NCBI GenBank assembly: GCA_009784975.1
Contig: WQXG01000012.1
Span: 1 to 54,913, forward strand
Length of the DNA stretch: 54,913 nucleotides
Source: Treponema sp.
GTDB taxonomy: Bacteria > Spirochaetota > Spirochaetia > Treponematales > Breznakiellaceae
Direction of reading: 5' to 3'
Shown: positions 5,101-42,689 of the stretch, in pieces
How positions within the stretch are numbered: position 1 is the stretch's first letter
Layout of the letters: the number at the start of each line of letters is the position of its first letter
The notes under the pieces: generated by a model
Told to the model about the DNA's origin: nothing
What the model saw: only the letters and a program-made list of their open reading frames with translations
The model's database searches: none
Program-made: the position numbers and the translations under genes

Positions 5101-5114
5101 AACCCCTCTTCCCC

Positions 5115-5319
5115 TCCGTGTCTTTGTGTGAGTCCAAGCAATTTAAAAACTTCTCTCCCCGTTCGTGTCCGTTAGTGTTTTGCCAACGAAGTTTCTAGGC
5201 GGTTCGTGGTAAAAAAACTCTCCGTGTCTTTGTGCCCTTTGCGCCTTTGTGTGAGTCCATGCAAGTTAAAACCCTCTCCCCTCGTTCGTGTCCGTTCGTG
5301 ATGGTTCGTGGTAAAAAAT
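5115..5319 (+). repeat. Two tandem units of a dispersed 'ttcgtgtccgttcgtg' repeat
   Basis: Two adjacent diverged units, 5115-5216 and 5221-5319. Each runs from tccgtgtctttgtg through gtgagtcca, cgttcgtgtccgtt and ends ggttcgtggtaaaaaa. Unit 1 contains tgccaacgaagtttctaggc, which is repeated at 6249-6304, and the ggttcgtggtaaaa end also occurs inside lnt near 42.1 kb. This is a dispersed repeat family of this genome. No gene is credible here. Confidence 0.65.
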
Positions 5320-6248: not shown

Positions 6249-6304
6249 CCCCGTTCATGTCCGTTCGTGTTTTGCCAACGAAGTTTCTAGGCGGCTCGTG
6301 GTAA
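6249..6304. repeat. Third copy of the dispersed 'ttcgtgtccgttcgtg' repeat
   Basis: ccccgttcatgtccgttcgt, then tgccaacgaagtttctaggc, then ggctcgtggtaaa: a close match to the first unit at about 5158-5213. It follows the GNAT gene with no gene of its own. Confidence 0.65.
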
Positions 6305-6322
6305 ATGTCGCTATATACATTA

Positions 6323-6517
6323 TTTTTGTTAAGCAAATATTAAACCCCAGTGTACAGGCACCCGCAGACAGCGGGATCAGGAAAAACATCTTCCGAAATT
6401 CTTCGCTGAAGAGACTTCGAAGAAGGCTCGTAAGCGAGCTTCTGAGGGGTTTTTCCTGAGCCCGATGCCTGCGGGTGCATGTACAGAGAGCAATTAACTT
6501 TTTGTGCTTAACAAAAA
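6323..6517. repeat. Large hairpin element A
   Basis: A long imperfect palindrome. The core is 6351-6493, starting tgtacaggcacccgcagaca and ending in the partner tgcgggtgcatgtaca. Inside are gggatcaggaaaaacatctt and its partner ctgaggggtttttcctga. The outside has a perfect 13-base inverted repeat, tttttgttaagca (6323-6335) and tgcttaacaaaaa (6505-6517). It belongs with elements B and C below. It lies between convergent genes (GNAT and pyrH), so a two-way terminator is plausible. The outer inverted repeat resembles a mobile-element end. Confidence 0.75.
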
Positions 6518-7201
6518 CTAAAAAATCTCCGTCCCAACAAATTCCTCACCGCGAAGAATATTAGCAAGATTATCAAGATTTCTTCCGCCGGCGCAAATTA
6601 CTTTCATTCCGATTTTGTGCGCGTGGCGGCTGGCGATTGGGTCAAAGGGGACGTTTTTTCCCGGTACCCATTCGTCACCGACAATGGCGCGGAAATCTGC
6701 CCATGAAATTTTATCTATGGGGCGGGCGTTCGGATCAATTTTGGGATCCGCAGTAAAAACTTTTTCTATATTGGAAAGATTAATAACCATGTCTGCGCCG
6801 AAACGTTCTGCCAGAAGGACGGCATCGTAATCTGTGGAAAACCCGGGTTTCCAGCCGGCTGCTACCAGCACATGACCTGTGAGCGGATCAACTTCCAGCG
6901 GGTTTGTGACAACTTCCTGACTGCACCATTCGCTCATCACAGCTCTTACAAGCTGCGCATTCAGGCGGGTTGCCATTATTCCTACCCAGTCAGCTTCGTC
7001 ATCTTTAATGTTACCGGCAGAAATTTCACGGTATGCGCTCTGATAACGGCGCGCGGGAGAACCGCCGCCTACCACAAAAATAAAATGCCTGTTATCTTTT
7101 TCGATAAATGTGCGGATTAAACCAACAAATTTTTTTAAAAACTCAACATCAACATTATCCGGCGCTACAATCGAGCCGCCCAATGAAATAACCGTTACCA
7201 T
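6518..7201 (-). CDS. pyrH: UMP kinase, archaeal-type
   Basis: A 227-residue amino-acid kinase that phosphorylates UMP to UDP using ATP, in the cytoplasm. Visible features are the N-terminal SLGGSI phosphate loop, FVVGGGSPARRYQ at residues 43-55, the acceptor-binding middle, and a C-terminal FDPIASRHAHKIGMKVICAGG. The length and the WADFRAIVGDEWVPG segment fit the archaeal-type (TIGR02076) form, which spirochaetes use in place of the usual bacterial PyrH. It is the last gene of the cysS-sigma-lipoprotein cluster, 17 bases after the transglutaminase-fold lipoprotein, and stops right at hairpin element A. Confidence 0.85.
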   Translation of the reverse strand: MVTVISLGGSIVAPDNVDVEFLKKFVGLIRTFIEKDNRHFIFVVGGGSPARRYQSAYREISAGNIKDDEADWVGIMATRLNAQLVRAVMSEWCSQEVVTNPLEVDPLTGHVLVAAGWKPGFSTDYDAVLLAERFGADMVINLSNIEKVFTADPKIDPNARPIDKISWADFRAIVGDEWVPGKNVPFDPIASRHAHKIGMKVICAGGRNLDNLANILRGEEFVGTEIF

Positions 7202-10578: not shown

Positions 10579-11967
10579 TTATTGACGTTTCCAGATTGTT
10601 CCGGCTGGTCCGTCTTCCAATATTATACCGCGATTTTTAAGATTTTGCCTTATATTATCTGCGGTTGCAAAATCTTTGGATTTTTTCGCCTCTGCGCGTT
10701 TCGCGATAAGTTCCTCGATTTCCTTCGCAAACGCCTCATTTACCTCATTATTACCGTTTTTTACAGCTTCCTCAAGCCCCAGCCCCAGAATCCTGTCCAT
10801 ATCAAAGATAGCCGGAAGCGCCGGTTTGTCCTTTAAAAGCCCCCATAATTCCGCCAAAGCCCGGGGTGTATTCAGGTCATCCTCAATTGCCTTATTAAAA
10901 GCCTGAGTATATTTTGATGTGCCGTCCCCGGATGCCCCGCTGTCCACTGCCAGTACCTTTTCAAGCAGTGATTTTCGCGCATTTCTGGCACCTTTCAGGC
11001 TTTCAAAAGAAAACTGAAGCTGACTGCGGTAATGTCCGCCAAGCAGGAAATAACGGTAATCGAGAGGGTCGAAACCTTCGTCTATAAGGCTTTGCAAAGT
11101 GAGGAAACCGCCTGCCGATTTGGACATTTTGCCTTTATCCAGCACGAGAAATTCGTTGTGCAGCCAGCAGGATACCCACGGTTTTTTCCCTGTAGCGGCT
11201 TCGCTTTGTGCAATTTCGTTAGTGTGATGGATAGGGATATGATCGATACCCCCCGCATGAATATCGAAATTTTCACCCAGATATTTCATGCTCATTGCGG
11301 AACATTCGATATGCCAGCCGGGATAACCTTTTCCCCAGGGGCTGTCCCACACAAGAGCCTGATTCGCAAATTTGCTTTTTGTAAACCAAAGTACAAAATC
11401 GCAGGCATTGCGTTTATTTTCATCCTGCTCGATCCGGGCACCCGCTTTTAAATCATCCAGCCGCAGCATGGCAAGTTCCCCGTAAGAAGGAAATTTAGAA
11501 ATATCAAAATAAAGGTTCCCTCCTGCAAAATAGGTAAACCCGTTTTTTTCTATCTGTTGGATAAGCGCTATCATTTCGCTGATATGTTCTGTCGCTTTGC
11601 AAACTACAGTTGGACGGACAATATTCATTCTGTCAGTATCTTTAAAAAACGCCTGCGTATAATAATCCGCGATTTCCAGAACACTCTTGCCCCGTTCTTC
11701 CGCGCTTTTTACCATTTTATCATCGCCGTCATCCGCATCATCGGAAAGATGCCCCACATCGGTAATATTCATAACATGATTAACGTCATACCCAAAACGG
11801 CGCAAAGAGCGAACCAAAATATCATGAAGCACATAAGCGCGCAAATTCCCGATATGCGCATAGTTATAAACAGTCGGGCCGCATCCGTAAAAGCCGATTG
11901 CCCCTTCTTTTAAGGGTTTAAAAAGCTGTTTGCTGCGGCCTAGGGTGTTGTAGAAAGAGAAAGACAT
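10579..11967 (-). CDS. cysS: Cysteinyl-tRNA synthetase
   Basis: A 462-residue class I aminoacyl-tRNA synthetase. GCGPTVYNYAHIGNLRAYV holds the zinc-ligand Cys and the HIGH-type motif. ITDVGH follows near residue 66, WHIECSAMS and HAGGIDHIPIHHTNEIAQ supply the other zinc ligands, and KGKMSKSAG is the KMSKS loop near residue 280. Length is normal for the family. It charges tRNA-Cys in the cytoplasm. It heads the minus-strand cluster leading into the ECF sigma factor. Confidence 0.95.
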   Translation of the reverse strand: MSFSFYNTLGRSKQLFKPLKEGAIGFYGCGPTVYNYAHIGNLRAYVLHDILVRSLRRFGYDVNHVMNITDVGHLSDDADDGDDKMVKSAEERGKSVLEIADYYTQAFFKDTDRMNIVRPTVVCKATEHISEMIALIQQIEKNGFTYFAGGNLYFDISKFPSYGELAMLRLDDLKAGARIEQDENKRNACDFVLWFTKSKFANQALVWDSPWGKGYPGWHIECSAMSMKYLGENFDIHAGGIDHIPIHHTNEIAQSEAATGKKPWVSCWLHNEFLVLDKGKMSKSAGGFLTLQSLIDEGFDPLDYRYFLLGGHYRSQLQFSFESLKGARNARKSLLEKVLAVDSGASGDGTSKYTQAFNKAIEDDLNTPRALAELWGLLKDKPALPAIFDMDRILGLGLEEAVKNGNNEVNEAFAKEIEELIAKRAEAKKSKDFATADNIRQNLKNRGIILEDGPAGTIWKRQ

Positions 11968-12024: not shown

Positions 12025-12191
12025 AGTGTTGGATTTGCTTGCTCTCCGTACAGGCGCTCACGGCAGCGGGATCAGAAAAAACCCCTCAGGAGCCCGGTTA
12101 CGAGCCTCTCGCTGCGCTCGGTCTCTTCACCGGAGAACTTCGGAAGATGTTTTTTCTGATCCCGCTGCCGTGAGCGCCTGTACGAATAGGA
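12025..12191. repeat. Large hairpin element B (inverted relative to C)
   Basis: A 167-base palindromic element. Its ends are ctctccgtacaggcgctcac (12042 on) and the partner cgtgagcgcctgtacg (ending near 12184). The inner stem pairs cagcgggatcagaaaaaac with gttttttctgatcccgctg. The reverse complement matches element C nearly end to end, including about 10-16 flanking bases on each side (agtgttggattt outside, cgaatagga inside). It lies between divergent genes cysS and the island methyltransferase. Confidence 0.85.
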
Positions 12192-12258
12192 TGTATAGCT
12201 AACAATATGTATAAGTAACATTATTGACAAATATTGTAGTGAAAAGGTAAGTTTAATT

Positions 12259-13038
12259 ATGGAAAATATTACTTTAGAAGAAAGCATAATTAAGGCAATG
12301 GATGGGGATGATTTGGAGCTTGTAAAATATTTGCCTTTTATTTTGCAGGATTTTTGGCATATTGGGACTCCTCCGGGAGAAATAATAAAAGTTATTAAAA
12401 AATATAAAACAGATTATTCTAAATTAAATTTATTGGATTTGGGTTCCGGTAAAGGAGCAGTTTCTATTAATATTGCCTTAGAATTAAAATGCAAATGTTT
12501 TGGAATAGATGGGATAGATGAATTTGTAGTTTTTTCCAATAATAAATCTAAAGAATATTCTGTACATGATATTTGCACATTTGAAACAGGCGATATACGT
12601 ACAAAAATAAAAACGCTGGGAAAATATGATATTATTATATTGGGGGCAATAGGAGCGGTTTTTGGAAATTATTATGAAACTTTGTCACAATTAAAAAGCA
12701 ATTTGGAAAAAGATGGGCTAATAATCATAAATGACGCTTATGTTGAAGATGATTGCAGTAAAAATCATACAAACGTATTAATAAAAAGCGAACTAATAAA
12801 ACAAATAAATAATGCCGGAATGAAACTAATTGACATAATTACAGATTATGATATTCAGGATATGGATACTGAATATGAAACTCAATTAAACAACATTCAA
12901 AAACGGTGTTTGGAATTAATGGAAAAACACCCGGAAAATAAAGAACTATTTGAAGAATATATAGAAAAACAAAAAAGAGAATACGAAATATTAAGCAATG
13001 AAATAATACCTGCAATATTTGTTATAAGTAAAACATAG
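12259..13038 (+). CDS. Class I SAM-dependent methyltransferase (small-molecule type)
   Basis: 259 residues. Motif I is clear at about 55-72 (LNLLDLGSGKGAVSINIALE), followed by an acidic strand end (CFGIDGIDEF), GDIRTKIKTLGKYDIIILG and a motif-IV-like LIIINDAYV. No (D/N)PPY is present, so it is not a typical adenine or cytosine DNA methylase; a metabolite or unknown substrate is more likely. The C-terminal 60 residues are a charged helical tail. The gene is much richer in A/T than cysS or the exchanger next to the island, suggesting acquisition. It precedes the nuclease-like pair by 37 bases, in the same direction. Confidence 0.75.
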   Translation: MENITLEESIIKAMDGDDLELVKYLPFILQDFWHIGTPPGEIIKVIKKYKTDYSKLNLLDLGSGKGAVSINIALELKCKCFGIDGIDEFVVFSNNKSKEYSVHDICTFETGDIRTKIKTLGKYDIIILGAIGAVFGNYYETLSQLKSNLEKDGLIIINDAYVEDDCSKNHTNVLIKSELIKQINNAGMKLIDIITDYDIQDMDTEYETQLNNIQKRCLELMEKHPENKELFEEYIEKQKREYEILSNEIIPAIFVISKT

Positions 13039-13075
13039 ACATTGACATAATATTTAAAATATTGTAAAAATAAAT

Positions 13076-13918
13076 ATGATTTTTGAATTGCGGAATAAAA
13101 TACCTCAAAATTCCAGTTTTATTTATTCAGAAGATGTTTTAACAGGTACAATATTCGGCAATTTAAGATATTTTAAAAACCAGCATTTATTAATACATTT
13201 TTTAAATGAGGCTGTTGATCTTCAAGGCAGTAAATTATTGTTAAATAAAGATTTTCTGTACGAAATACTTTTTTGGAAAAAATACCGTTCATCTTATGAT
13301 AATGATAGTTACAACGAACCGGATTTGGTTCTGCATAATAAAAATGACGCAATAATAATTGAGTGTAAATATTTTTCGTCATTAAGCGAAGATACCATAG
13401 AAGTGGATGGGAAAGAAGAATACAGGAATCAATTAATCCGGTATGCTTCAGTTATAAATGATTATTATTTCAATAAAGAGCATAAAGCAATTGTATTCTT
13501 AACAAATGAAAAAACTATGCCTAAAGATATATTAAAAGAAACAAAAATACATCTGGATAAAAAATATAAAAACATTAAATTATACTGGTTATCATGGAAT
13601 TCCCTGTATACCGTAATACAGAACAATTATTCAGATATTTCTGCAGACAATAAAATTTTATTATCTGATTTAACAGAGTTTTTAATAAAAAGGAAGTTAT
13701 ATAATTTTGATGGTTTTAATGTAAAGAAAATAAAATATGACAGATTCTATAAAAAAGATTATTTTATTATCAGCAAACATTTATTTGAATGGAGATATAT
13801 ACCAAAAATAAAATATTATTTTAATATTATACATCCTGTTGACAAAATCAATTTTTATAAATATTATTATTTTAGCCATATAAAAAAAGACAATATAAAC
13901 TGGAGGTACAAAAAATGA
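13076..13918 (+). CDS. PD-(D/E)XK nuclease-superfamily protein
   Basis: 280 residues, very A/T-rich. Residues 82-98 read PDLVLHNKNDAIIIECK: Asp83, then Glu96-x-Lys98 on the next strand, the metal-binding signature of PD-(D/E)XK nucleases. Upstream, SEDVLTGTIFGNLRYF (Glu19) resembles the conserved N-terminal helix of one restriction-endonuclease-like subgroup. The following EYRNQLIRYASVINDYY is a helix that usually packs on that core. The rest is Lys/Tyr-rich without a known domain. Its stop overlaps the next gene (ATGA), so the two are coupled. DNA cleavage or defence is inference from fold and context; the methyltransferase upstream does not look like its DNA-modifying partner. Confidence 0.65.
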   Translation: MIFELRNKIPQNSSFIYSEDVLTGTIFGNLRYFKNQHLLIHFLNEAVDLQGSKLLLNKDFLYEILFWKKYRSSYDNDSYNEPDLVLHNKNDAIIIECKYFSSLSEDTIEVDGKEEYRNQLIRYASVINDYYFNKEHKAIVFLTNEKTMPKDILKETKIHLDKKYKNIKLYWLSWNSLYTVIQNNYSDISADNKILLSDLTEFLIKRKLYNFDGFNVKKIKYDRFYKKDYFIISKHLFEWRYIPKIKYYFNIIHPVDKINFYKYYYFSHIKKDNINWRYKK

Positions 13919-14442
13919 ATGATATTGGAAATCTTGTAAAACAATACAATAGATTTATTGACGATTTGAGAATGATGTTGGATGATATAAATGAAATATT
14001 GACAGATGAATTTAAGATGGAATGGGTTTATGAACTTTGGCATCCTCGTGAAAGAACTGCATGGCCGTCAAAAGAACGTTTTTCAAAATGGTATAATAAG
14101 GATAAAAGTATAATATATATTTGTATTCAGCTAATGGATGAAACCCCGTATTTATTAATATTTTACACAAATATAGATAATAAAAAAAAGAAATTAACAG
14201 AATTTGGAGAACATACACCATTTGAATCAATCGAAAAAAATGATATCGAAAAAAGAAAAGAAACAAATATAATAACTTCCTTAAAAGAAGATTGGGGAGA
14301 TTGTTATTACTGCAAAATAGATTTAGAAACAATAAACTCCAATCAAGTAATAAACACAGACTTAAAAAATACAATAAAAAACATTCTAAACATGGAGTTT
14401 AACAAAATAAGCGTCACCAAGATCAAGTTTATTGAAAGCTGA
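13915..14442 (+). CDS. Unknown protein coupled to the PD-(D/E)XK gene
   Basis: 175 residues, A/T-rich, start ATG overlapping the previous stop by 4 bases and preceded by GGAGG. The N-terminal half is helical (NLVKQYNRFIDDLRMMLDDI), then a beta-rich centre with aromatic residues (WVYELWHPRERTAWPS, SIIYICIQLMDETPYLLIFY). No catalytic motif or membrane segment is visible, and I do not recognise the family. The tight overlap suggests it acts with the nuclease-like protein, for example as a partner, inhibitor or specificity subunit. Confidence 0.6.
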   Translation: MNDIGNLVKQYNRFIDDLRMMLDDINEILTDEFKMEWVYELWHPRERTAWPSKERFSKWYNKDKSIIYICIQLMDETPYLLIFYTNIDNKKKKLTEFGEHTPFESIEKNDIEKRKETNIITSLKEDWGDCYYCKIDLETINSNQVINTDLKNTIKNILNMEFNKISVTKIKFIES

Positions 14443-14474
14443 GTGATGTGGTATATTCAAATTATTGGAATACT

Positions 14475-14635
14475 TCCTATTCGTACAGGCACTCACGGCA
14501 GCGGGATCAGAAAAAACATCTTCCGAAGTTCCTCGCTGTAGAGACCGCTTGCGGGCTCGGAAGCGAATTCCTGAGGGGTTTTTTCTGAGCCCGCTGCCGT
14601 GAGCGCCTGTACGGAGAGCAAGTAAATCCAACACT
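14475..14635. repeat. Large hairpin element C (inverted relative to B)
   Basis: A 161-base palindromic element. tcctattcgtacaggcactc (14475 on) pairs with ccgtgagcgcctgtacg (near 14612). The inner stem is cagcgggatcagaaaaaaca with ttttttctgagcccgctg. It matches the reverse complement of B including flanks, and shares its core with A (aaaaaacatcttccgaag and cctgaggggtttttt). It closes the A/T-rich island on the right. Confidence 0.85.
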
Positions 14636-24264: not shown

Positions 24265-24897
24265 TTATTCGTTTTCCAGTGTTGTATTGAGAAGAGCAAA
24301 TTTGTTAACAGAAACAGGTAATGCAAGGAAATAGAAAGGAATGCAGAGCATGAACATCCAGCATACGATTCTTATCAAGGTTGCGCCTGCGCCTGCTTTA
24401 AAAGCTACTTTGCGGCCATTGATTGAATAAGCAGGATATACTGCAAAAAGCAACAGAGGAGCAAAGAAAAGACACATAAAGAAAATGGTAAAAAAGACAA
24501 TAATTGATTCTATTACGCCGCCGTTATAGGTAAAAGATTCAGTTTCACCTTCAATGAACAGGTTTGCGGCAAGAAACTCCTGAAACCGTCTTGGTACAAA
24601 GAATATACCATATATTCCCAGTGTAACCAAAGTTAAAAGAAACCATATAATCCATTTTTTGAAAAATGACATTCCAGTAGCCCTGAATTCAAGTCTCTTG
24701 CCATTGATAACGGATTTGGAATATATCCAGCGTAAATACCACATGGATGCCCAAAAAGCTCCTATGCCAAATGTTACCATTGAAACCAAACAAGCCAACA
24801 TCAATCTTGCTTGTTGTTCCGACCAGCGTCCTTCGAACCTGGAATTAAATGCATCACTTGAGTTGTCGAGCCCCCCAAGTATTCCTTCTTGTGCCAT
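24265..24897 (-). CDS. DUF898-family integral membrane protein
   Basis: 210 residues with about five membrane segments. The pattern matches DUF898 (YjgN-like): an early membrane helix GIGAFWASMWYLRWIYSKSVINGKRLEFRATG, then TLGIYGIFFVPRRFQEFLAAN, with a second NGRKVAFKAG later. Function is unknown across the family. It is monocistronic, with a 100-base A/T-rich gap before the helicase gene. Confidence 0.7.
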   Translation of the reverse strand: MAQEGILGGLDNSSDAFNSRFEGRWSEQQARLMLACLVSMVTFGIGAFWASMWYLRWIYSKSVINGKRLEFRATGMSFFKKWIIWFLLTLVTLGIYGIFFVPRRFQEFLAANLFIEGETESFTYNGGVIESIIVFFTIFFMCLFFAPLLLFAVYPAYSINGRKVAFKAGAGATLIRIVCWMFMLCIPFYFLALPVSVNKFALLNTTLENE

Positions 24898-24995: not shown

Positions 24996-27563
24996 CTATC
25001 CCAAATAGTCCGAAAGCCTGCGGTAACACTGATTCACAATATGTTTTTGTTCGATATCGACATCTTCATCAAGTTCGTCTATCAATGTTTCAAGACTGGA
25101 AAGGCTTTCGTTCAGGCTGGTATGAAAGCCGCGTGAAGCCCTCAGCCAAAAATTTCCTTCTCCGTCTGTGAAAAGTCCCAGAAATCCTAAATCTTTACTG
25201 TTTTTTTTCCATACCACAGGTCTTGCAAGACTGTCGAGGTGTTTTAAAAGCGAATTAAAATTTTCCTGCAGGTTAAAATTCTCTTTTCGCGGCCATCCGC
25301 GGGAAAAAGCGCCGTTTACATCCAAAGTCGGCGTTAACGAAAGTATTAGTTCGAGTTTTTCTCCTTCCAGCAGATTGTATTGATTCTTTATGATTATTTT
25401 TCCTTTTAAACCTTTATACACGGTTTCGTTGGACAGGTGTTCGCGGATACGTTCGAGCTTTTCCCAGGGCAGCAGAACAGTTTTCTTTCCTTTAACAGTT
25501 ATTATTTCGAATACTTCGCTTTCTATTTTGATATTATTGGTAAAATCGCGCGCTTTTTTTAACTTTTTAGGAGATAAATCACGTTCCTGTTTGTTTGATT
25601 TGCGGTCTGTTGGAGGTGTAAACCCTGCATGCGCGAAAAAGTCGGGATGGATTCGATGTAAAACCTGTTTTGAGACCGGAGAAACCGACATTGCATACAT
25701 TCTTGAGGTGCGGACAATTTCTCCGGCGACAATAAATGCAGGATCTGCGCGAAACATTACCGAACCGGGATGAATTATGATTTTATCTGCCGTTAAACTG
25801 CGGTATGTGCCGTTTCTTCCTTGTCCTTCCCTCACACAGACAAATTGTATCATTCCGCGCCCGATACAGCACAGATAATCATTTATTTCGTTTTTTGACA
25901 ATGGATTTGTTCTTTCGTGTACCGGAATCTTCATTGATGAGAGAATTTCTTCAAGCTGATACGTTACATTCACGATTTCTGCCATTGCGCGCTCATCAAG
26001 GTAATTTTTTTCGCAGAATCTCAGTTTATTGGCGGAATCATTGTAAGATTTAAAAAGTTTCAGGTACGAAATAAAATCGCCGTCATCATCACGGAAACGG
26101 TGATGAGCCTGGCGGGCATCGGTTTCTTCTCCCGGCGGCAGGATATACGGGCTTTGTGTTGATAAAAATGCCGCCGCAATGATTGTTTCCCGAATAACAT
26201 CGGGGTAATGCAGGATAGCTTCCACAATTATGCGTGATTGGCGGGGCGCTAAAGGGAATTCTGTCATTAATTTGCCGGTATTCGACAAACTGCGATCCGG
26301 TTTTAGCGCTTCAAGCAGATTTAATGTTTCAATTCCGCCGATAAGACCTGCTTTATCGGGAGATGCGATAAAATCAAAATCTTCAAAGTTGGTTATGCCG
26401 AGATCTGCCATTCTTAAAATTACTTCTGATAAATCTGTGCGGAAAATTTCTTCTGTGGTATAAAGATATCTGTTTTCAAAATCTTTACGTGTGTATAGTC
26501 TGTAACATGTTCCTTCCCGCGTTCTTCCTGCGCGTCCCTTGCGTTGATTCGCCGATGCTTTGGAAATAGGCTGTTCAATCAAACTTGATGTGAATGTGCG
26601 CGGATTATACCAGTTTAATTTTGCAAGTCCTGAATCAATTACAGCGGTGATTCCATCTATTGTAACGGATGTTTCGGCAATATTTGTGGATATAACTACT
26701 TTTGTTTTACCTTTTGGAGCAGCTTCAAAGACTTTTTCCTGTTCTTCTTTCCCAAGCCGTCCGTATAACGGAATAAGATGTAAAAAATTCCCAACAGAAC
26801 TGAATGTAAGCCGATTCATGCAGTCTTTAATCATTTTTTCTCCAGAAAGGAACACCAAAATATCTCCTTCACGCTTTTCTTCGATAAATCGTGTAGTAAT
26901 ACCTTCAATTTTCATCAAAATAGCCTCTGAATTGCTGTTTTCTGCGCTATTTCTCTCTCTAAATCCTCCGCTTTGCACGCTATTCACCGCATCATATATC
27001 ACTGTAACCGGAAAACGCTGCGCATCAATCTTGACAATCGGACATTCTCCGAAATATTCGGAAAAAACTTCCGCATTTATTGTCGCAGAAGAAATAATTA
27101 CCTTGAAATCACGCCGGTTTTCCATGACTCGCTTGAGTAAACCGAGTATAAAATCAATATTTAAGCTCCTTTCATGGGCTTCATCGACGATTAATACGCT
27201 GTATTTTGATAACCAGGGATCAAGTTTCATCTCCTGAAGCAGAATTCCGTCCGTCATTATTTTAATTTTGGTTTTTTGATTGGTTTGATCCGCAAAACGC
27301 ATCTTATATCCGATGAGTCCGGGTATGGAATTTTCCGTTTGACGCGCGATAAATTCGCTTACAGACACCGCCGCTATCCGTCTTGGCTGAGTCACCCCGA
27401 TGATTCCGTTCTGTGCGCCGTATCCGGCTTCGTAAAGTATAACGGGGAGCTGTGTTGTTTTGCCGGAACCTGTAGGGCTTTCCACGACAAGCGCCTGATT
27501 ATTTTCCAGCGCCGATAAAATTATTTGTTTATTTTTGTAGACAGGAAGGTCAAGATAGTTCAT
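24996..27563 (-). CDS. DEAH-box RNA helicase (HrpA/HrpB-like)
   Basis: 855 residues. Motifs in order: I, PTGSGKTTQLP near residue 35; Ia, TQPRRIAA; II, DEAHERS near 126; III, SATIN; V, TNIAETSVTIDG; VI, QRKGRAGRTREG. A winged-helix/ratchet region and an OB-like C-terminal part follow, as in DExH helicases of the HrpA group, but shorter than E. coli HrpA (1300). The final ~200 residues are family-specific. It unwinds RNA or ribonucleoprotein in the cytoplasm using ATP. It is divergent from ppdK with only 73 bases between. Confidence 0.88.
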   Translation of the reverse strand: MNYLDLPVYKNKQIILSALENNQALVVESPTGSGKTTQLPVILYEAGYGAQNGIIGVTQPRRIAAVSVSEFIARQTENSIPGLIGYKMRFADQTNQKTKIKIMTDGILLQEMKLDPWLSKYSVLIVDEAHERSLNIDFILGLLKRVMENRRDFKVIISSATINAEVFSEYFGECPIVKIDAQRFPVTVIYDAVNSVQSGGFRERNSAENSNSEAILMKIEGITTRFIEEKREGDILVFLSGEKMIKDCMNRLTFSSVGNFLHLIPLYGRLGKEEQEKVFEAAPKGKTKVVISTNIAETSVTIDGITAVIDSGLAKLNWYNPRTFTSSLIEQPISKASANQRKGRAGRTREGTCYRLYTRKDFENRYLYTTEEIFRTDLSEVILRMADLGITNFEDFDFIASPDKAGLIGGIETLNLLEALKPDRSLSNTGKLMTEFPLAPRQSRIIVEAILHYPDVIRETIIAAAFLSTQSPYILPPGEETDARQAHHRFRDDDGDFISYLKLFKSYNDSANKLRFCEKNYLDERAMAEIVNVTYQLEEILSSMKIPVHERTNPLSKNEINDYLCCIGRGMIQFVCVREGQGRNGTYRSLTADKIIIHPGSVMFRADPAFIVAGEIVRTSRMYAMSVSPVSKQVLHRIHPDFFAHAGFTPPTDRKSNKQERDLSPKKLKKARDFTNNIKIESEVFEIITVKGKKTVLLPWEKLERIREHLSNETVYKGLKGKIIIKNQYNLLEGEKLELILSLTPTLDVNGAFSRGWPRKENFNLQENFNSLLKHLDSLARPVVWKKNSKDLGFLGLFTDGEGNFWLRASRGFHTSLNESLSSLETLIDELDEDVDIEQKHIVNQCYRRLSDYLG

Positions 27564-27636: not shown

Positions 27637-30600
27637 ATGGCTAAACAGAAAAATGTTTATTTCTTCGGCAATGGCAAAGCCGAGGGAGATGCAAAGATGA
27701 AATTAGTATTGGGAGGTAAGGGCGCCAATCTTGCCGAGATGACTAATCTTGGCATACCGGTTCCGCCGGGTTTTACAATTTCTACAGACGTTTGCGCTGC
27801 TTATTATGAAAATAAAAACAAATATCCTGCCGGATTAAAAGAAGAAGTCGAAGCAAATCTTAAAAAACTTGAAGCATCAATGAAAAAGAAACTGGGCGAT
27901 CCGAGCGATCCGCTTTTGGTTTCTGTCCGTTCGGGAGCGGCAGCATCCCTGCCGGGCATGATGGATACTATCCTTAATCTTGGGATGAGCGACAAAGTTG
28001 TTAAGGGACTTGCCGATAAAACGGGAAATCCGCGGTTTGCATGGGATGCTTACAGGCGTTTTCTTCAGATGTACGGCGATGTTGTAATGGGTGTGGACCA
28101 CGATCACTTTGAAGAAGCCCTTGCAGCAATGAAAAAAGACAGAAAAGCGGAGTTAGATACCGATCTTTCAGCGTCAGATCTGGAAAAACTTGTAGATCAA
28201 TACAAAAAAATCATAAAAAAAGATACAGGCAAAGATTTCCCGCAAAACCCGATGGATCAGCTTTGGGGTTCCATAAATGCGGTTTTTGGCTCATGGATGA
28301 ACGACAGAGCCGTTAAATACCGCCAGATCGAGAATATTAAAGGGCTTAAAGGGACTGCTGTTAACATTCAATCAATGGTTTTCGGTAATTTCGGCGAAGA
28401 TTCGGGTACAGGCGTATGTTTTAGCCGCGATCCAAGCACCGGAGTCAATATTTTTTACGGCGAATATCTGATGAATGCGCAGGGCGAAGATGTTGTTGCG
28501 GGAATCAGAACTCCGGAAAGAATTTCTACACTGGAAAAAAAGAATCCTGTTATTTATAAACAGCTTGTAGGTATTAAAAATAAACTTGAAAAGCATTTTA
28601 AAGATATGCAGGATATGGAATTTACCGTACAGCAGGGAGTTCTTTATATTCTGCAAACCAGAAACGGCAAACGCGCGGGAACTGCCGCTGTAAAATGCGC
28701 CATTGATATGGTAAAAGAAGGCTTAATCGATAAAAATACCGCTATCTCCCGTGTAACACCCGGTCATCTTGATCAATTACTGCACCCGATGATCGATACA
28801 AAAGCCCAAAAAGAAGCAAAAGCCCTTACTAAAGCATTAAATGCATCCCCCGGCGCCGCTTCCGGCAGAATTGTTTACACCGCAAAAGATGCTGAAAGCT
28901 GGCACGAAAGAGGCGAAAAAGTAATGCTTGTCCGCAAGGAAACCTGCCCGGAAGATATCGGCGGAATGGTTGCATCACAGGGTATTCTTACATCAACCGG
29001 CGGTAAAACAAGTCATGCCGCTGTTGTTGCGCGCGGAATGGGTACTCCCTGTATCGTCGGCGCAAAAGGCGTTGTTTTAAACGGCGACGGCACGGTTGAA
29101 ATCGGCGGAAAACTTTTTAAAGAAGGCGACTGGATCACCATAGATGGTTCTTCCGGCGAAGTATACGAAGGCAAAATGCCGCTTGTAGCGCCTGCAATCT
29201 CCAAAGAAATGGATACTTTCCTTAAATGGTGCGATGATGTCAGGGCAAAAGCGGTTCGCGGCAAAGTAAAAGGATTTGATGTAAGAACCAACGCCGATCA
29301 GCCGGATGATGCAAAACGCGCTTTTGATTTCGGCGCTCAGGGTATTGGACTTTGCCGTACAGAGCATATGTTCTTTGAAAAAGAAAAACTTATACATTTC
29401 CGCGCTATGATTCTTTCCGAGACAGAAGAAGAAAGAAAAGCGCAATTAAAAAAGATTCTGCCATTGCAACAAAAGGATTTCTTTGGTATTTTTAAAGCTA
29501 TGGAAGGCCGTCCTGTAACAATAAGGCTTTTAGACCCGCCTCTTCACGAATTTGTTCCGCACTCAAAGGAAGAAATTGCAGAGCTTGCAGGTCACTTAAA
29601 GCTGGATGTTAACAAGTTAACTATTAAAATCGGCACTCTTGTAGAAAGCAACCCGATGCTGGGTCATCGCGGCTGCCGTTTAGCGGTTACGTATCCTGAA
29701 ATCTACGATATGCAGGTGGAAGCAATCGCTCTTGCAGCGGCAGATTGTGCAAAACAAAAGATTCCGGTAAATCCTGAAATTATGATTCCGCTTATCGTTA
29801 CTCACAGGGAACTCAAATTCCTGCGTCCGAATGCGGAAAAAATCCTTGAAAATGTGTTTAAAGCCGCCGGTGTTACAGTTCCGGTGCATATCGGCACGAT
29901 GATCGAGGTGCCCCGCGCGGCAATTCGCGCAGGCAGCATCGCAGAATATGCAGATTTCTTCAGTTTTGGAACAAATGATCTTACACAAATGACTTTCGGC
30001 TTCAGCCGCGATGATGTTGCTTCATTCCTGCCTATTTATCTCCAGAAAAACATCCTTGATGACGAACCTTTCCAGACAATTGACCAAAACGGAGTCGGCG
30101 GACTGATCGAACACGCGATTTTAGAAGGAAGATTTACAAAACCAGATCTTAAAATTGGGATCTGCGGGGAACACGGCGGCGATCCTGCCTCTATAGAATT
30201 CTTTTATAGAGCAGGGTTCAGCTACGTATCATGTTCACCCTTCCGGGTACCGTTAGCGCGTCTTGCAGGCGCACAAGCGGTTATAAAAGCCGGATTGAGT
30301 ATAAAGGGAGGGGATACAGCGAAGACTGGTAATCCCGCCACTGCCAAGGTGAAGGGCAGTAAAAAACCTATAATGGGGGAAAAGAAAATGGCAGTAACAT
30401 CTGCGAAGAAACCTGCGGCAAAGAAGGCCGCAAAGAAACCAGCCGCGAAGAAAGCCGGCGCGAAGAAGCCTGCGGCAAAGAAAGCCGCAAAGAAACCAGC
30501 CGCGAAAAAAGCTCCTGCAAAGAAAGCAGCAGCAAAAAAAGCGCCTGCAAAGAAAGCAGCAGCCAAGAAAGCTCCTGCCAAGAAGAAAGCAGCAGCCAAG

Positions 30601-30759
30601 AAAGCTCCTGCAAAGAAAAAAGCAGCAGTAAAGAAAGCTCCTGCAAAGAAAAAAGCAGCAGTTAAAAAAGCTCCTGCAAAGAAAGCAGCAGCCAAGAAAG
30701 CTCCTGCCAAGAAAAAAGCAGCAGCCAAAAAAGCTCCTGCAAAAGCACCTGTAATGTAA
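27637..30759 (+). CDS. ppdK: Pyruvate, phosphate dikinase with Lys/Ala histone-H1-like C-terminal extension
   Basis: 1040 residues, against about 870-900 normally. Residues 1-890 are a complete PPDK: ATP-grasp (KGANLAEMTNLGIPVPPGFTIS, SVRSGAAASLPGMMDTILNLG), the phosphohistidine swivelling domain TGGKTSHAAVVARGMGTPC, and a TIM-barrel with QGIGLCRTEHMFF, IGTMIEVPRAA and the active-site Cys in GICGEHGGDP. It interconverts pyruvate + ATP + phosphate and PEP + AMP + PPi, typical of fermentative anaerobes. After residue ~895 a linker leads into about 120 residues of KKPAAKKA/APAKKA repeats like bacterial histone H1-like proteins. An internal ATG with its own site could make the tail separately (see 30388). 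Start: GGAGG 7 bases upstream. Confidence 0.93.
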   Translation: MAKQKNVYFFGNGKAEGDAKMKLVLGGKGANLAEMTNLGIPVPPGFTISTDVCAAYYENKNKYPAGLKEEVEANLKKLEASMKKKLGDPSDPLLVSVRSGAAASLPGMMDTILNLGMSDKVVKGLADKTGNPRFAWDAYRRFLQMYGDVVMGVDHDHFEEALAAMKKDRKAELDTDLSASDLEKLVDQYKKIIKKDTGKDFPQNPMDQLWGSINAVFGSWMNDRAVKYRQIENIKGLKGTAVNIQSMVFGNFGEDSGTGVCFSRDPSTGVNIFYGEYLMNAQGEDVVAGIRTPERISTLEKKNPVIYKQLVGIKNKLEKHFKDMQDMEFTVQQGVLYILQTRNGKRAGTAAVKCAIDMVKEGLIDKNTAISRVTPGHLDQLLHPMIDTKAQKEAKALTKALNASPGAASGRIVYTAKDAESWHERGEKVMLVRKETCPEDIGGMVASQGILTSTGGKTSHAAVVARGMGTPCIVGAKGVVLNGDGTVEIGGKLFKEGDWITIDGSSGEVYEGKMPLVAPAISKEMDTFLKWCDDVRAKAVRGKVKGFDVRTNADQPDDAKRAFDFGAQGIGLCRTEHMFFEKEKLIHFRAMILSETEEERKAQLKKILPLQQKDFFGIFKAMEGRPVTIRLLDPPLHEFVPHSKEEIAELAGHLKLDVNKLTIKIGTLVESNPMLGHRGCRLAVTYPEIYDMQVEAIALAAADCAKQKIPVNPEIMIPLIVTHRELKFLRPNAEKILENVFKAAGVTVPVHIGTMIEVPRAAIRAGSIAEYADFFSFGTNDLTQMTFGFSRDDVASFLPIYLQKNILDDEPFQTIDQNGVGGLIEHAILEGRFTKPDLKIGICGEHGGDPASIEFFYRAGFSYVSCSPFRVPLARLAGAQAVIKAGLSIKGGDTAKTGNPATAKVKGSKKPIMGEKKMAVTSAKKPAAKKAAKKPAAKKAGAKKPAAKKAAKKPAAKKAPAKKAAAKKAPAKKAAAKKAPAKKKAAAKKAPAKKKAAVKKAPAKKKAAVKKAPAKKAAAKKAPAKKKAAAKKAPAKAPVM
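30388..30759 (+). CDS. Possible separate histone-H1-like protein from an in-frame internal start
   Basis: ATG at 30388 is residue 918 of the ppdK frame and is preceded by GGGGGA (30375-30380) at normal spacing. From here the protein reads AVTSAKKPAAKKAAKKPAAK and continues as Lys-Ala-Pro repeats to the stop, 123 residues, about the size and style of free bacterial H1-like nucleoid proteins. tataat occurs at 30369-30374, though without a convincing -35. So one reading frame may make both a long PPDK and a small DNA-binding protein, or the tail may only exist fused. The sequence alone cannot decide. Confidence 0.4.
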   Translation: MAVTSAKKPAAKKAAKKPAAKKAGAKKPAAKKAAKKPAAKKAPAKKAAAKKAPAKKAAAKKAPAKKKAAAKKAPAKKKAAVKKAPAKKKAAVKKAPAKKAAAKKAPAKKKAAAKKAPAKAPVM

Positions 30760-30828: not shown

Positions 30829-30856
30829 CTAATTCAAATAAATATATTGGCTCTCT

Positions 30857-30999
30857 GTCCGGCAGTGGGGCGGTCTGCGTGCTGGGAAAACATTTGTAAA
30901 GAGTCTGCTCCGAAGCCCAGCATCCTTTGGATGCAGGTCTTCTACGCAGGGAACGACAAAAATTGTTTTCCCAGCCCGCAGCCCGCCCCGCTGCCGGAC
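30857..30999. repeat. Large hairpin element D, different sequence, same architecture
   Basis: gtccggcagtggggcgg (30857 on) pairs with ccgccccgctgccggac (ending 30999). Inner arms are ctgggaaaaca and tgttttcccag, with an unpaired centre of about 70 bases. Its size and plan match elements A-C (a GC-rich outer stem and an A-run/T-run inner stem) but the bases differ. It lies between convergent genes (ppdK and the radical SAM gene). Confidence 0.7.
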
Positions 31000-31031
31000 A
31001 AAAAGTTAATAGTTTGAATAACGCAGAGGCT

Positions 31032-34474: not shown

Positions 34475-35500
34475 ATGCAACAGACAGTATTCGGTAAAAC
34501 CGGACTTACAGTAAGCCGCACAGGATTCGGCTGCATTCCCATTCAGCGTATTCCATTCGGGGAAAGTACCGCAATGCTTAAGCATGCGTATGATCACGGC
34601 GTTACTTTATATGATACTGCAAATTCATACACAACCAGCGAAGAACGATTGGGCATTGCTCTTCATGATGTGCGTCATAATATTGTGATATGCACAAAAT
34701 CATCCCCGCTTTCTGCGGAAAAAATCACGGCAAATATCGATAACAGTTTAAAAATGCTAAAAACCGATTATATCGATATTTTTCAGGTGCATAATCCTCC
34801 GTTTGTACCGCGTCCGGATGGAGAGGACGGTATCTATAATTGTCTTTTAAAAGCAAAAGCGCAGGGAAAAATCCGGCACATCGGTATAACATCACACAGT
34901 AAAGATCGGGCTAAAGAATCGATATTATCGGGTCTTTACGATACTTTGCAGTATCCATTATCTTATCTGTCCTCCGATGACGAGCTCCTCCTTGTTGATC
35001 TTTGCCGTGAACACAATATTGGTTATCTTGCAATGAAAGGTTTATGCGGCGGCCTTATAACCAATGCAAAAGCCGCTTTTGCGTATCTCAGGCAATTTAC
35101 TAATGTAGTTCCAATTTGGGGTATGCAAAAAATGTCCGAGCTGGAAGAATTTTTATCGTACGAAAATGACCCCCCGCCGTTTGACAATGTTATGCAAAGC
35201 GCTATAGAAGCCGATAAAAAAGAACTAGGCGGTAATTTCTGCCGATGCTGCGGATACTGTCTGCCCTGTCCTGCCGGCATTCCAATCAACAATGCAGCGC
35301 GCATTACATTTTTACTTGGCAGGGCAGTAAAGGAACATTTTATCACACAGGAATGGCAGGACAATATGCGCAGCATCGACAACTGCACAAACTGCGGACA
35401 TTGCACCAAACATTGCCCTTTCCCGCTGGATGTACCGGCACTGCTAAAGCAGCAGCAGAGGGAGTATTTTAGGATAGTGGAAAATATTTTGCGCAAGTAA
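34475..35500 (+). CDS. Aldo/keto reductase with C-terminal ferredoxin-like domain
   Basis: 341 residues from the ATG at 34475, chosen because AAGGAG lies 5 bases upstream (an ATG at 34418 in the repeat array is too early). Residues 1-250 are an AKR barrel: GFGCIPIQRIP, Asp and Tyr in LYDTANSYTTSEERLG, and Lys in ICTKSS. The C-terminal 80 residues have two cluster motifs, CRCCGYCLPCPAGI and CTNCGHCTKHCPFPLDV, typical of the ferredoxin-containing AKRs of anaerobes. It probably moves electrons between NAD(P)H, ferredoxin and a carbonyl substrate; the substrate is unknown. Confidence 0.85.
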   Translation: MQQTVFGKTGLTVSRTGFGCIPIQRIPFGESTAMLKHAYDHGVTLYDTANSYTTSEERLGIALHDVRHNIVICTKSSPLSAEKITANIDNSLKMLKTDYIDIFQVHNPPFVPRPDGEDGIYNCLLKAKAQGKIRHIGITSHSKDRAKESILSGLYDTLQYPLSYLSSDDELLLVDLCREHNIGYLAMKGLCGGLITNAKAAFAYLRQFTNVVPIWGMQKMSELEEFLSYENDPPPFDNVMQSAIEADKKELGGNFCRCCGYCLPCPAGIPINNAARITFLLGRAVKEHFITQEWQDNMRSIDNCTNCGHCTKHCPFPLDVPALLKQQQREYFRIVENILRK

Positions 35501-35511
35501 CGGAGGAATAA

Positions 35512-35973
35512 ATGGAAAATATTTTATTTTTTGAGACAATGACACAGCCCAAGGGGTTCCTGAGTATAATACCGGTTATTATTTTAATAATTCTTGTAAT
35601 GGTTTTAATTGGTTTAATTATAGGATACTTATATTCTATGAAACATACAGGTATTTTAATAAAAAACAATGATGTAATAATAAAAACATTTCTTTACAGC
35701 AGAAAAATACCAATAAGCGATATTTTAATAAATGATATTCAAACAATAAATTTAAATCAAAATAATGAATATAATGTTTTAATCAGAACAAATGGAATAG
35801 GGTTACCGAATTTTTATTTAGGCTGGATGAAATTAAAAAATGGCAAAAGAGCATTGGTATATTTAACAAATAAAGAAAATGTCTTATTAATGCCAACCAG
35901 GGATTTTGTAGTACTATTCAGTATGCAAAACTCAGAAGAATTTATTAGAAAAATTAATGAATTAAAACAATAA
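35512..35973 (+). CDS. Small membrane-anchored protein of unknown function
   Basis: 153 residues, A/T-rich, start supported by GGAGGA. One or two membrane segments at about 18-44 (SIIPVIILIILVMVLIGLII), then a beta-rich domain (KHTGILIKNNDVIIKTFLYSRKIPISDI ... NFYLGWMKLKNGKRALVYL) that resembles the bacterial PH-like domain in pattern. It follows the reductase by 11 bases and precedes another A/T-rich unknown by 1 base, so it is likely in one transcript with them. Confidence 0.65.
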   Translation: MENILFFETMTQPKGFLSIIPVIILIILVMVLIGLIIGYLYSMKHTGILIKNNDVIIKTFLYSRKIPISDILINDIQTINLNQNNEYNVLIRTNGIGLPNFYLGWMKLKNGKRALVYLTNKENVLLMPTRDFVVLFSMQNSEEFIRKINELKQ

Positions 35974-35974
35974 T

Positions 35975-36334
35975 ATGAATAAATCTGAATATATAAAGCA
36001 AGATTATGTTTATTATAAATTGGGTATAAAATACTATAAAAACATTCATCCAAATTATTTTTACAAAAGAAACCCGGATACAACATTTGAAACAAAGTCT
36101 AACGAAGAATTATCAAATGTTTTTAATAAAATATATGTATCATTTAAATTATCTGAATATTATTTTAACAGGGTAATAAATGAATATCCAGAATCATTAT
36201 ATGCAGAAGATGCAAAAGAAAAAATAAAACTGCTTGAAAAATTAACTAAAAGTTATAAAAACATAATCCTGAAAGAAAATAAAATTGTAAATAACGGAAA
36301 ATTCATGAAAGAAATGGGATTAAAGCTAATGTAA
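35975..36334 (+). CDS. Small helical protein, TPR-like
   Basis: 119 residues, Lys/Tyr/Asn-rich and A/T-rich. SEYYFNRVINEYPESLYAEDAKEKIKLLEKL has the 'F..vi..yP.S.ya..A...i..l' pattern of TPR-type repeats in outer-membrane assembly and cell-division proteins (YfiO/YbgF style). No signal peptide. It starts 1 base after the previous stop with no separate ribosome site, suggesting coupling. Function unknown. Confidence 0.55.
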   Translation: MNKSEYIKQDYVYYKLGIKYYKNIHPNYFYKRNPDTTFETKSNEELSNVFNKIYVSFKLSEYYFNRVINEYPESLYAEDAKEKIKLLEKLTKSYKNIILKENKIVNNGKFMKEMGLKLM

Positions 36335-36408
36335 AAATGACCCGAAATAAACTAATATCAAAATAATTCTTCTTTACAAAACCAATTCTTTCTGATATAA
36401 TTTTAAAC

Positions 36409-41019: not shown

Positions 41020-42689
41020 TGCGTCTGTCCCCTGTTCCTTAGTTTTCTTATTGTACACCATACTGCGCAGGAAAGCAATAATGTAACAGCCGCTAAAACA
41101 AAGAAAATACCAAGATAATCGCCGTATCGCGTATAAATTGTGTCTTTTTTTACCAGAGGTATTGTAACATTTAGCCAGGTTTCCGCGAAAGGGGGCGCTT
41201 CTGCCGTTATTCTGCCCGTTGGATCAATAGCGCAGGTTTGCCCTGAAACGGTAGATCTGACCATTGGGCGGAAATTTTCCACCGCTCTAAAGACTGCCAT
41301 GGAAAGATGCTGGTACTGCGACGGCAAACTTTTTGCCCAGGCATCATTTGTAAGGTTTACGAGGACATCGGCTCCCCTGCGGACAAAGTTTCTTGACAAG
41401 TAGCCGAAGGTATCTTCAAAACAAATAGGAGCAGAGAAGGTAAATCCGGGTCCTTCAAAAACTGTCTCTTCACTGCCTTTTTCCCAAAAATGCGTATCAG
41501 CTTTTTCCAGAGCATTGTATATCCAGGGAAATTGTTTTTTATACGGGAAATGTTCGGTAAATGGAACCAGGTGCAGTTTTCTGTAAGTTGCCGTATTAAT
41601 TCCATTTTCAAAGAGCATTGCCGCATTGTAATCGACCCGGTGTTTTTCGGATGCATCGGGATTAATCGACCTGTCCATGCGTGCATCATCGTTGCCAATC
41701 AGGAAGGGGACATCCTGTGCAGAAAGATACTCCAGAAGATCCCTTACTATAGCCCATGAAACTTGATCGTCACGGTATGTAGTATGCCAGTAGATTCGCG
41801 GGATAAATGCCGTTTCCGGCCAAACTACCAATTGCGGTTTTGGGGCGGAATCCAGCGCTTCATCGGAAAGCCGAATTAAGGTTTCCATGTCTTTGCGGTA
41901 AGCTGCGGCTACCTGCCATGAAGCGGGCGCCCGGGCTGCTTCCCACGGATCGGAATTATGCTGGATAAGCGCAATCTGCGCAGTTGGATAAGAAGAAAAA
42001 TCTTTGCCGGAAACAAATCCAAAAACAAGAACCGCCGCAAAAGCCGCCGCCCAAACAACAGCAGATACTTTTTCTTTACGAAGATAATTAAAAAACCTTT
42101 TCTTCCGTTCGTGTTGGTTCGTGTTGGTTCGTGGTAAAATTTCTTCTTGTTTTAGCGCTTCCCCAATCCAAAAAGACGGAAATGTAACAAGAGCGCTTAC
42201 GCCCCAAACGCCTGTGATACTTGCGATTTGAATTAACGGTATCATCTGCCACTGTGAATAACCCGTGATTCCGTAGGGGTAGCCCAGAAATCCTTTGGTA
42301 CGCAAATATTCATAAGCAAGCCAAATTATCCATTGGACAAGATATGAACGGTTGGGAAATAAAAGGGCAGCAAGTTTTAACAGCAGGAAAACAACAGCCA
42401 TATAAAGCAGGTATATCGTATATACGATTGTTCCTGCCAAAGGATGAAAATTTCCAAGCCAATAATTAAATAAACAATAAGTGATAAAACCATAGATTGC
42501 GCCCCAGCCTGCGCAAACCGGAAGATTATATTTACTGATAACTATAAGGATTGGGATATATGCAAACCATGCGAAAAAGGGAATGCCGCGTATAAAGACG
42601 GGATTGGGAAAAGACGCGGCAAAAAGCAATGATGCTAAAACAATAAGTCCAAAGTGTAAAAAAATTGATTTATTCTTTTTTATCATCAT
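41016..42689 (-). CDS. lnt: Apolipoprotein N-acyltransferase
   Basis: 557 residues: about seven membrane helices at 10-240, then the nitrilase-like domain. Catalytic triad Glu in VWPETAFIPR, Lys in YRKLHLVPFTEHFP, Cys in FSAPICFEDTFG. It adds the third acyl chain to lipoproteins in the inner membrane. Between helices a segment EEILPRTNTNQHERKKRFF is encoded by the genome's dispersed ttcgtg repeat (42105-42139) and is not typical of Lnt. Starts 20 bases inside the HU gene end; stop overlaps the response regulator start. Confidence 0.92.
   Translation of the reverse strand: MMIKKNKSIFLHFGLIVLASLLFAASFPNPVFIRGIPFFAWFAYIPILIVISKYNLPVCAGWGAIYGFITYCLFNYWLGNFHPLAGTIVYTIYLLYMAVVFLLLKLAALLFPNRSYLVQWIIWLAYEYLRTKGFLGYPYGITGYSQWQMIPLIQIASITGVWGVSALVTFPSFWIGEALKQEEILPRTNTNQHERKKRFFNYLRKEKVSAVVWAAAFAAVLVFGFVSGKDFSSYPTAQIALIQHNSDPWEAARAPASWQVAAAYRKDMETLIRLSDEALDSAPKPQLVVWPETAFIPRIYWHTTYRDDQVSWAIVRDLLEYLSAQDVPFLIGNDDARMDRSINPDASEKHRVDYNAAMLFENGINTATYRKLHLVPFTEHFPYKKQFPWIYNALEKADTHFWEKGSEETVFEGPGFTFSAPICFEDTFGYLSRNFVRRGADVLVNLTNDAWAKSLPSQYQHLSMAVFRAVENFRPMVRSTVSGQTCAIDPTGRITAEAPPFAETWLNVTIPLVKKDTIYTRYGDYLGIFFVLAAVTLLLSCAVWCTIRKLRNRGQTQ
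42105..42139. repeat. Dispersed 'ttcgtg' repeat inside lnt
   Basis: ccgttcgtgttggttcgtgt, then tggttcgtggtaaa, the same end sequence as the intergenic repeats at 5301-5315 and 6293-6304. Here it keeps the lnt frame and codes PRTNTNQHER in a loop region. Confidence 0.75.

Follow-up and report, generated by a model that had tools for sequence, protein, structure and literature searches.

Two inverted hairpin repeats, B and C, enclose an AT-rich three-gene island in a Treponema sp. genome, and the arrangement raises the question of whether the repeats are the paired ends of a single mobile or invertible unit, as a preliminary description of this DNA had proposed, or belong to a wider pattern. 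The window, that is, the whole stretch of DNA analyzed, comprises 54,913 nucleotides (nt) of contig WQXG01000012.1, and the two repeats lie in it as follows:

12025..12191, plus strand: hairpin repeat B, a stem-loop at 12047-12184 plus flanks common to C
14475..14635, minus strand: hairpin repeat C, inverted relative to B

Our comparisons within this genome and with its relatives reveal that the special status of B and C gives way to a genome-wide pattern, that of a structured, mosaic palindromic repeat with a narrow distribution that tends to mark breaks in synteny. B and C are thus probably dispersed copies of a long hairpin that tends to sit at gene-order breaks or gene gains, with the island representing accessory DNA caught between two of them and carrying a cargo that includes a candidate nuclease module.

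Hairpin repeats B and C and the family to which they belong

Alignment of B with the reverse complement of C yields two ungapped blocks, of 93 nt at 88% identity and 78 nt at 92%, or a single alignment of 177 nt at 85% identity (E 3e-55). The outer flank of B is agtgttggattt (12025-12036), and the outer flank of C (14624-14635) is its reverse complement, while the inner sides of B and C carry tcctattcg and cgaatagga, respectively; the near end-to-end match that had been described, short flanks included, is thus confirmed. B forms a hairpin of 138 nt in which 36 pairs make up the stem, with a folding energy of -91.1 kcal/mol, compared with -44.9 ± 4.0 kcal/mol in shuffled sequences (z -11.4), and C also folds far more stably than its shuffles (z -10.2). 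The copies nearest to the B stem-loop are C38 (95%), C24 (93%), and C64 (91%), and C itself, at 85%, is not the nearest. In the 26-nt left flank, B and C are mutually nearest among 31 copies (0.85; next 0.69). In the 20-nt right flank, the copy most similar to C is B (0.70; next 0.55). Both comparisons are ungapped, and a gapped alignment would draw some copies, for example C64, nearer to B.

The family to which B and C belong has at least 42 copies in the window's own genome, an assembly of 2.60 Mb in 73 contigs. With B as the query, 94 alignments resolved into 40 places of at least 75 nt, to which a profile search of the fetched regions added two; the total is a lower bound because only 40 of the 70 first-look candidates were scored. 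Two further hairpins stand in the window:

6308..6534, minus strand: third family copy, also at a synteny break
30856..31000 (also given as 30845-31011), no strand assigned: hairpin of like architecture whose outer stem is different, located 3′ of the gene at 27637-30759

The copies share an inner core and fall into subfamilies that vary in their outer stems, extra mini-hairpins, and flanks. Most have an outer stem that starts with GTACAGGCGCTCACGG, and those on C13, C21, C26, C41, C50, C58, and C63 have one that starts with GGGAAGGCGGGGCAGCC. Some copies have up to 464 nt in common or contain tandem half-units. Half-hairpin units of ~58-78 nt also adjoin full copies (L047 536-605 and 2371-2510; L064 7146-7209; L049 5744-5821) and are found in tandem on C36. 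The distribution of the family is narrow, with matches to a typical copy in 3 of 39 genomes of the genus, namely the window's own (G000) and two relatives, G033 and, weakly, G008. The copies in G033 show 88-91% identity at its two best places; cysS is 76% identical in DNA between G000 and G033, so the best repeat pairs of the two genomes are more alike than this gene. The hairpin family matched no Rfam family, and no account of it was found in searches of the open-access literature on palindromic intergenic elements, Treponema included. In G033, a phage-integrase-family recombinase and AT-rich open reading frames (ORFs) lie no more than about 5 kb from a hairpin copy (L137 1995-2915 and 4198-6897).

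Copies also occur near one another more often than expected, with seven close pairs (<3.2 kb) seen and 2.1 expected under random placement on one continuous genome (P 0.003). Only two of the seven are inverted, as B and C are, and five are direct. The DNA that other close pairs enclose has a GC content of 26.8% on C36, 36% on C13 and C60, and 39-44% on C10, C41, and C4, and genes below 36% GC make up 34% of 58 hairpin neighbors compared with 14% of 316 other genes.

The stems covary. Across 30 aligned copies, the named structure is paired in 95.5% of cells (86.5% in shuffles), 22 pairs are altered on both sides (11.0 ± 1.9 in shuffles), and the covariation score is 0.242 (0.091 in shuffles), values that none of the 500 shuffles reaches. 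Sliding the partner by 1-3 columns reduces pairing to 42-50%, a comparison in which the named structure is favored because it was drawn from B. The inner stem exists in five versions and is complementary in 30 of 30 copies. For the outer and inner stems together, the two arms within a copy differ at 4.2% of pairs and the same arm differs between copies at 24%; within the main subfamily (26 copies) the corresponding values are 4.5% and 17%. This likeness of the arms within a copy can be explained both by selection on the fold and by copying from arm to arm, and the two are not distinguishable here.

Gene order beside the hairpins

B stands next to a conserved block, and the comparison of this block with the two relatives that carry the family involves two genes:

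10579..11967, minus strand: cysS, part of a conserved block whose upstream neighbor is a helicase gene in G033 (next gene) and in G008 (one ORF between)
24996..27563, minus strand: the helicase gene, which adjoins cysS in the two relatives and lies 13 kb away in the window

B is thus located on the cysS side of a 13-kb difference in gene order. The ORF that intervenes between cysS and the helicase gene in G008 (200 amino acids) is not homologous to the window ORF at 24265-24897. An exact empty site for the B-C stretch was unobtainable, because in G007, G003, and G025 the ortholog of the antiporter gene is flanked by different genes and the helicase stands beside cysS in G033 and G008.

The same tendency is seen across the copies that could be compared. 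Gene ends that face a hairpin have a changed neighbor in G033 or G008 in 13 of 14 cases, compared with 13 of 62 ends that face no hairpin (Fisher p 8e-7), and when the controls are restricted to nonhairpin gaps of at least 60 nt, 6 of 16 have changed (p 0.0024). An end was scored as unchanged when, in either relative, the three genes that follow it included the ortholog of one of the two genes that follow it in the window's genome. The count covers 12 query regions, chosen by a match of the hairpin-adjacent gene, and relatives chosen for carrying the family; both relatives were used for 10 of the 14 ends, and only G008 for those at L056, L054, L061, and L063. A usable match was obtained for nine of the 12 joined gene pieces and not for ox60, g44, or g50r, so that these three sites fall outside the count, as does C, which lacks an ortholog pair. 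Two short ORFs (L054:5784 and L043:4761) and all ORFs of <200 amino acids that overlap a hairpin were removed manually because their reading frames run into the repeat or alongside it. This removal added two ends to the hairpin class and took one from it; the counts before it were 12 of 13 and 16 of 65.

The genes between B and C and other features of the window

Three ORFs fill the stretch between B and C, which has a GC content of 25.6% (41.8% for the fetched stretches of the same genome pooled), and the last two, as the preliminary description had stated, overlap, here measured at 4 nt:

12259..13038, plus strand: class I S-adenosylmethionine-dependent methyltransferase (Pfam Methyltransf_31), an accessory gene with orthologs in three nuclease-less relatives
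13076..13918, plus strand: PD-(D/E)XK nuclease-like protein, PADLOC PDC-M15A, by PADLOC match and an eight-sequence alignment
13915..14442, plus strand: P3, 175 amino acids, overlapping the nuclease gene by 4 nt and occupying the position of a partner gene

The view that these genes form a single three-gene system did not hold. Orthologs of the methyltransferase are present in G011 (68%), G020 (68%), and G014 (57%), and none of these three genomes contains a match to the nuclease. The methyltransferase is therefore an independent accessory gene that lies outside the nuclease module. Its Pfam and NCBIfam matches include no DNA-methylase family, and a Type II restriction-modification pair was rejected on the basis of its Methyltransf_31 assignment and its presence in relatives that lack the nuclease.

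The PD-(D/E)XK protein matches four PDC-M15A models of PADLOC-DB 2.0.0 (PDLC04459, 3e-15; PDLC04456, 7e-14; PDLC04455, 8.4e-14; PDLC04458, 4.1e-12), the best match spanning residues 14-224 of 280. Residues E81, D83, E96, and K98 are invariant in eight of eight aligned nuclease proteins, with the shortened L154 protein standing outside the alignment. The gene is found in 1 of 39 genomes of the genus, the window's own, and among 296 genomes of the phylum there is one weak further match, which contains stops. Its confirmed distant relatives number seven, at 24-34% identity, from a pattern-based scan of one genome per species across 84,980 species; these are from Bacillus kwashiorkori, three Clostridium, Syntrophomonas, a Lachnospiraceae bin, and Lutibacter, and a plasmid search added one more, from Niallia. 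In seven of the eight, a partner gene encoding ~195 amino acids lies directly downstream and overlaps the nuclease gene, and the loci with such an overlapping partner presumably belong to Bacillota and Bacteroidota. In the eighth, from Clostridium sp. OS1-26, the nuclease ORF is shortened and no partner gene follows.

The seven partner genes (loci L148-L153 and L077) form a clear uncharacterized family, and the five that were scanned (L077, L150, L153, L152, and L148) matched no PADLOC model and no Pfam model above the cut-off. P3 likewise matches no PADLOC model, and its structure model has a predicted local distance difference test (pLDDT) score of 42. P3 shares with the partner genes its place, its overlap with the nuclease gene, and a similar length. 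By this layout, the PD-(D/E)XK gene and P3 may constitute a candidate two-gene nuclease module of the PDC-M15A kind. Such a module would be expected to act on phage or plasmid DNA, with the nuclease cutting and the partner either aiming or restraining it; P3 may be a homolog of the partner family, and the module may have a role in defense.

Elsewhere in the window, the gene at 27637-30759, which we take from its sequence to be PPDK, has a C-terminal tail that from about position 30403 consists of a lysine/alanine repeat, with the hairpin at 30845-31011 directly 3′ of it. A second AT-rich stretch at 35500-36400 (24% GC) contains a bacterial PH-domain ORF and a small ORF and has no hairpin flanks. 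Another dispersed repeat, GTTCGTGTCCGTTCGTG, is present at 5112-5316, 6249-6305, and 42086-42139.

Origin of the hairpins and comparison with known systems

Several of the features described above favor the proposal that an enzyme encoded elsewhere moves or flips a composite mobile unit or an invertible segment of which B and C form the paired ends. The island contrasts strongly in GC content with the genome, B and C are in opposite orientation, their variant of the left flank is closer between the two than to the other copies compared, and the island is missing at the cysS locus of two relatives. Indeed, the foreign-looking character of the stretch, the restriction of the nuclease gene to 1 of 39 genomes, and the position of B at a change in gene order are the parts of the original proposal that stand. 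The family, however, places at least 42 copies beside unrelated genes, most of its close pairs are direct, the change beside cysS amounts to 13 kb and so exceeds the B-C stretch, no transposase or recombinase is encoded among the three genes between B and C, and the repeats that flank the sole Y1 transposase found in the genome are different ones. Thus, we regard paired ends of this kind as unlikely. The possibility that such flanks surround unrelated genes with no link to insertions, which had also been raised, was borne out in part: unrelated genes are flanked, but a link to synteny breaks is seen. It is also conceivable, though rather doubtful, that the hairpins are selected structured RNAs or bidirectional terminators, which would gather in new intergenic junctions that tolerate or need them and would not cause the breaks. 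The covarying stems fit this idea, as do the runs of five A on one side and five T on the other that border the inner stem and are invariant in 30 of 30 aligned copies, an arrangement by which each strand could read as a terminator-like hairpin. A scan found terminator-like sites on both strands inside B, but none in C. Against the idea, at least one gene 3′ end is faced by 24 of the 29 hairpins that have genes on both sides (39 placed), which is only a mild rise over the 94 of 136 obtained for all gaps of >60 nt in these regions, with or without a hairpin. Moreover, the genes on either side of B are divergent, with their starts facing it, a stem of 36 pairs is more than a terminator requires, and the family lacks an Rfam counterpart. 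Finally, breaks could be artifacts if a short-read bin had been misjoined at repeats, and the genome is indeed in 73 contigs, with 15 of 42 copies <1 kb from a contig end. The longest exact matches to another copy in the fetched regions, however, are 48 nt for B, 53 nt for C, and 35 nt for the copy at 6.3 kb, and the words used in assembly are usually longer than these. In addition, breaks are still seen at seven of the eight counted ends whose copy has an exact match of 48 nt or less. Artifactual joins are therefore a very improbable source of the pattern.

The explanation that we favor is that the repeats are dispersed long hairpins that tend to sit at order breaks and gene gains. Under this explanation, the repeats would be nonautonomous palindromic elements, and their copies would serve as substrates for recombination or breakage, with new DNA becoming joined beside them, such that the repeats may cause the breaks rather than follow them. 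The flank variant that B and C have in common, in opposite orientation, suggests a local inverted duplication of one copy, after which the loop core would have been exchanged; we take the likeness of the flanks as a modest sign of such a duplication, which may be how B and C arose.

Several results weigh against this explanation or its parts. The link between hairpins and breaks may be due, in part or in whole, to large gaps that break anyway: compared with nonhairpin gaps of at least 100 nt, of which three of six have changed, the difference has a p of 0.06, and both of the two nonhairpin gaps of at least 150 nt have changed, large-gap controls being too scarce to separate the link from gap size. 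The groEL end keeps its neighbor, with a hairpin and extra DNA inserted between genes that adjoin in both relatives. Two of the 13 hairpin-facing breaks are soft, as the L063 ortholog is without a conserved neighbor on either side and L059 reaches a contig end, and two of the 13 nonhairpin breaks (window 24996 and 27637) flank the same 13-kb change or a hairpin that belongs to another subfamily. The family profile detected no copy at the orthologous places examined (in both relatives for 10 ends and in G008 only for four), but G033 is 74% complete and a profile built from the copies of the window's genome could miss diverged copies, such as those of G008; its sole match within the relatives' loci (L196 9873-9956, score 16) lies away from the tested places. 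The analysis found neither an element end nor a target duplication nor an enzyme for the hairpin family; homology decays differently among copies, and no empty site could be aligned at the DNA level. In the ungapped 20-nt right flank, B is tied between C and copy C36b (0.70 each), and the cores of B and C differ. The number of further pair types in the stems does not exceed that in shuffles (107 of 500 reach it). For the nuclease module, hhalign detected no homology of P3 to the partner family (probability 0.35%), PDC-M15A is only a candidate family in PADLOC, and no paper was found under the PDC-M15A family name.

The hairpins resemble several known repeats. Like the REP and REPIN elements associated with RAYT (PMC3116915, PMC3733652), they are dispersed, intergenic, palindromic, and hairpin-forming, often occur in close pairs, are nonautonomous, and comprise several families per genome. 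REPs measure 20-40 bp and have a GTAG or CGTC motif at one end (PMC3116915, PMC3733652). In contrast, the hairpin of B measures 138 nt and its stem 36 pairs, and the feet of B and C, the two copies read in this respect, are CTCTCC-GTAC and GTAC-GAAT, with no GTAG or CGTC foot. Mobilization by a RAYT was rejected, as the one PF01797 match in the genome lies at a locus (L074) with other repeats and no match to the family profile. This locus (L074 735-3038; G000:C18), with its Y1 transposase and its own flanking GGTAATTGATACC and ACTCACACAAAGG repeats, could represent a separate REP-like system. The enterobacterial repeat units RU-1 (127 bp), RU-2 (168 bp), and RU-3 (103 bp) are similar in length, intergenic, present in many copies, and described as like miniature inverted-repeat transposable elements (PMC2759123), the comparison with them being by description only. 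Our hairpin family differs from them in swapping its outer stem between subfamilies and keeping the inner core, and in the tendency of its copies toward synteny breaks.

Two other arrangements were also considered. Integron cassettes, with AT-rich genes between folded repeats (attC sites), resemble the B-C island but were rejected, as B and C are inverted rather than in the same orientation and the copies are dispersed through the genome. A composite transposon would have a transposase among the ORFs between B and C, and none is present.

More speculatively, the hairpins might represent a self-maintaining junction element with swappable outer stems and a conserved folded core, which would provide landing places for AT-rich accessory genes, defense modules among them, without a transposase or integrase of known kind; we consider this quite improbable. 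Should a larger control bear out the link to breaks, the family would be a countable case of a palindromic repeat, without a known enzyme, that marks rearrangement and gene gain. Its covarying, swappable stems also make it possible to test whether the likeness of the two arms is maintained by selection or arises from copying within the hairpin. In addition, the overlapping partner of the PDC-M15A nuclease, found at seven of eight loci, provides a ready two-gene candidate for a phage-defense assay.

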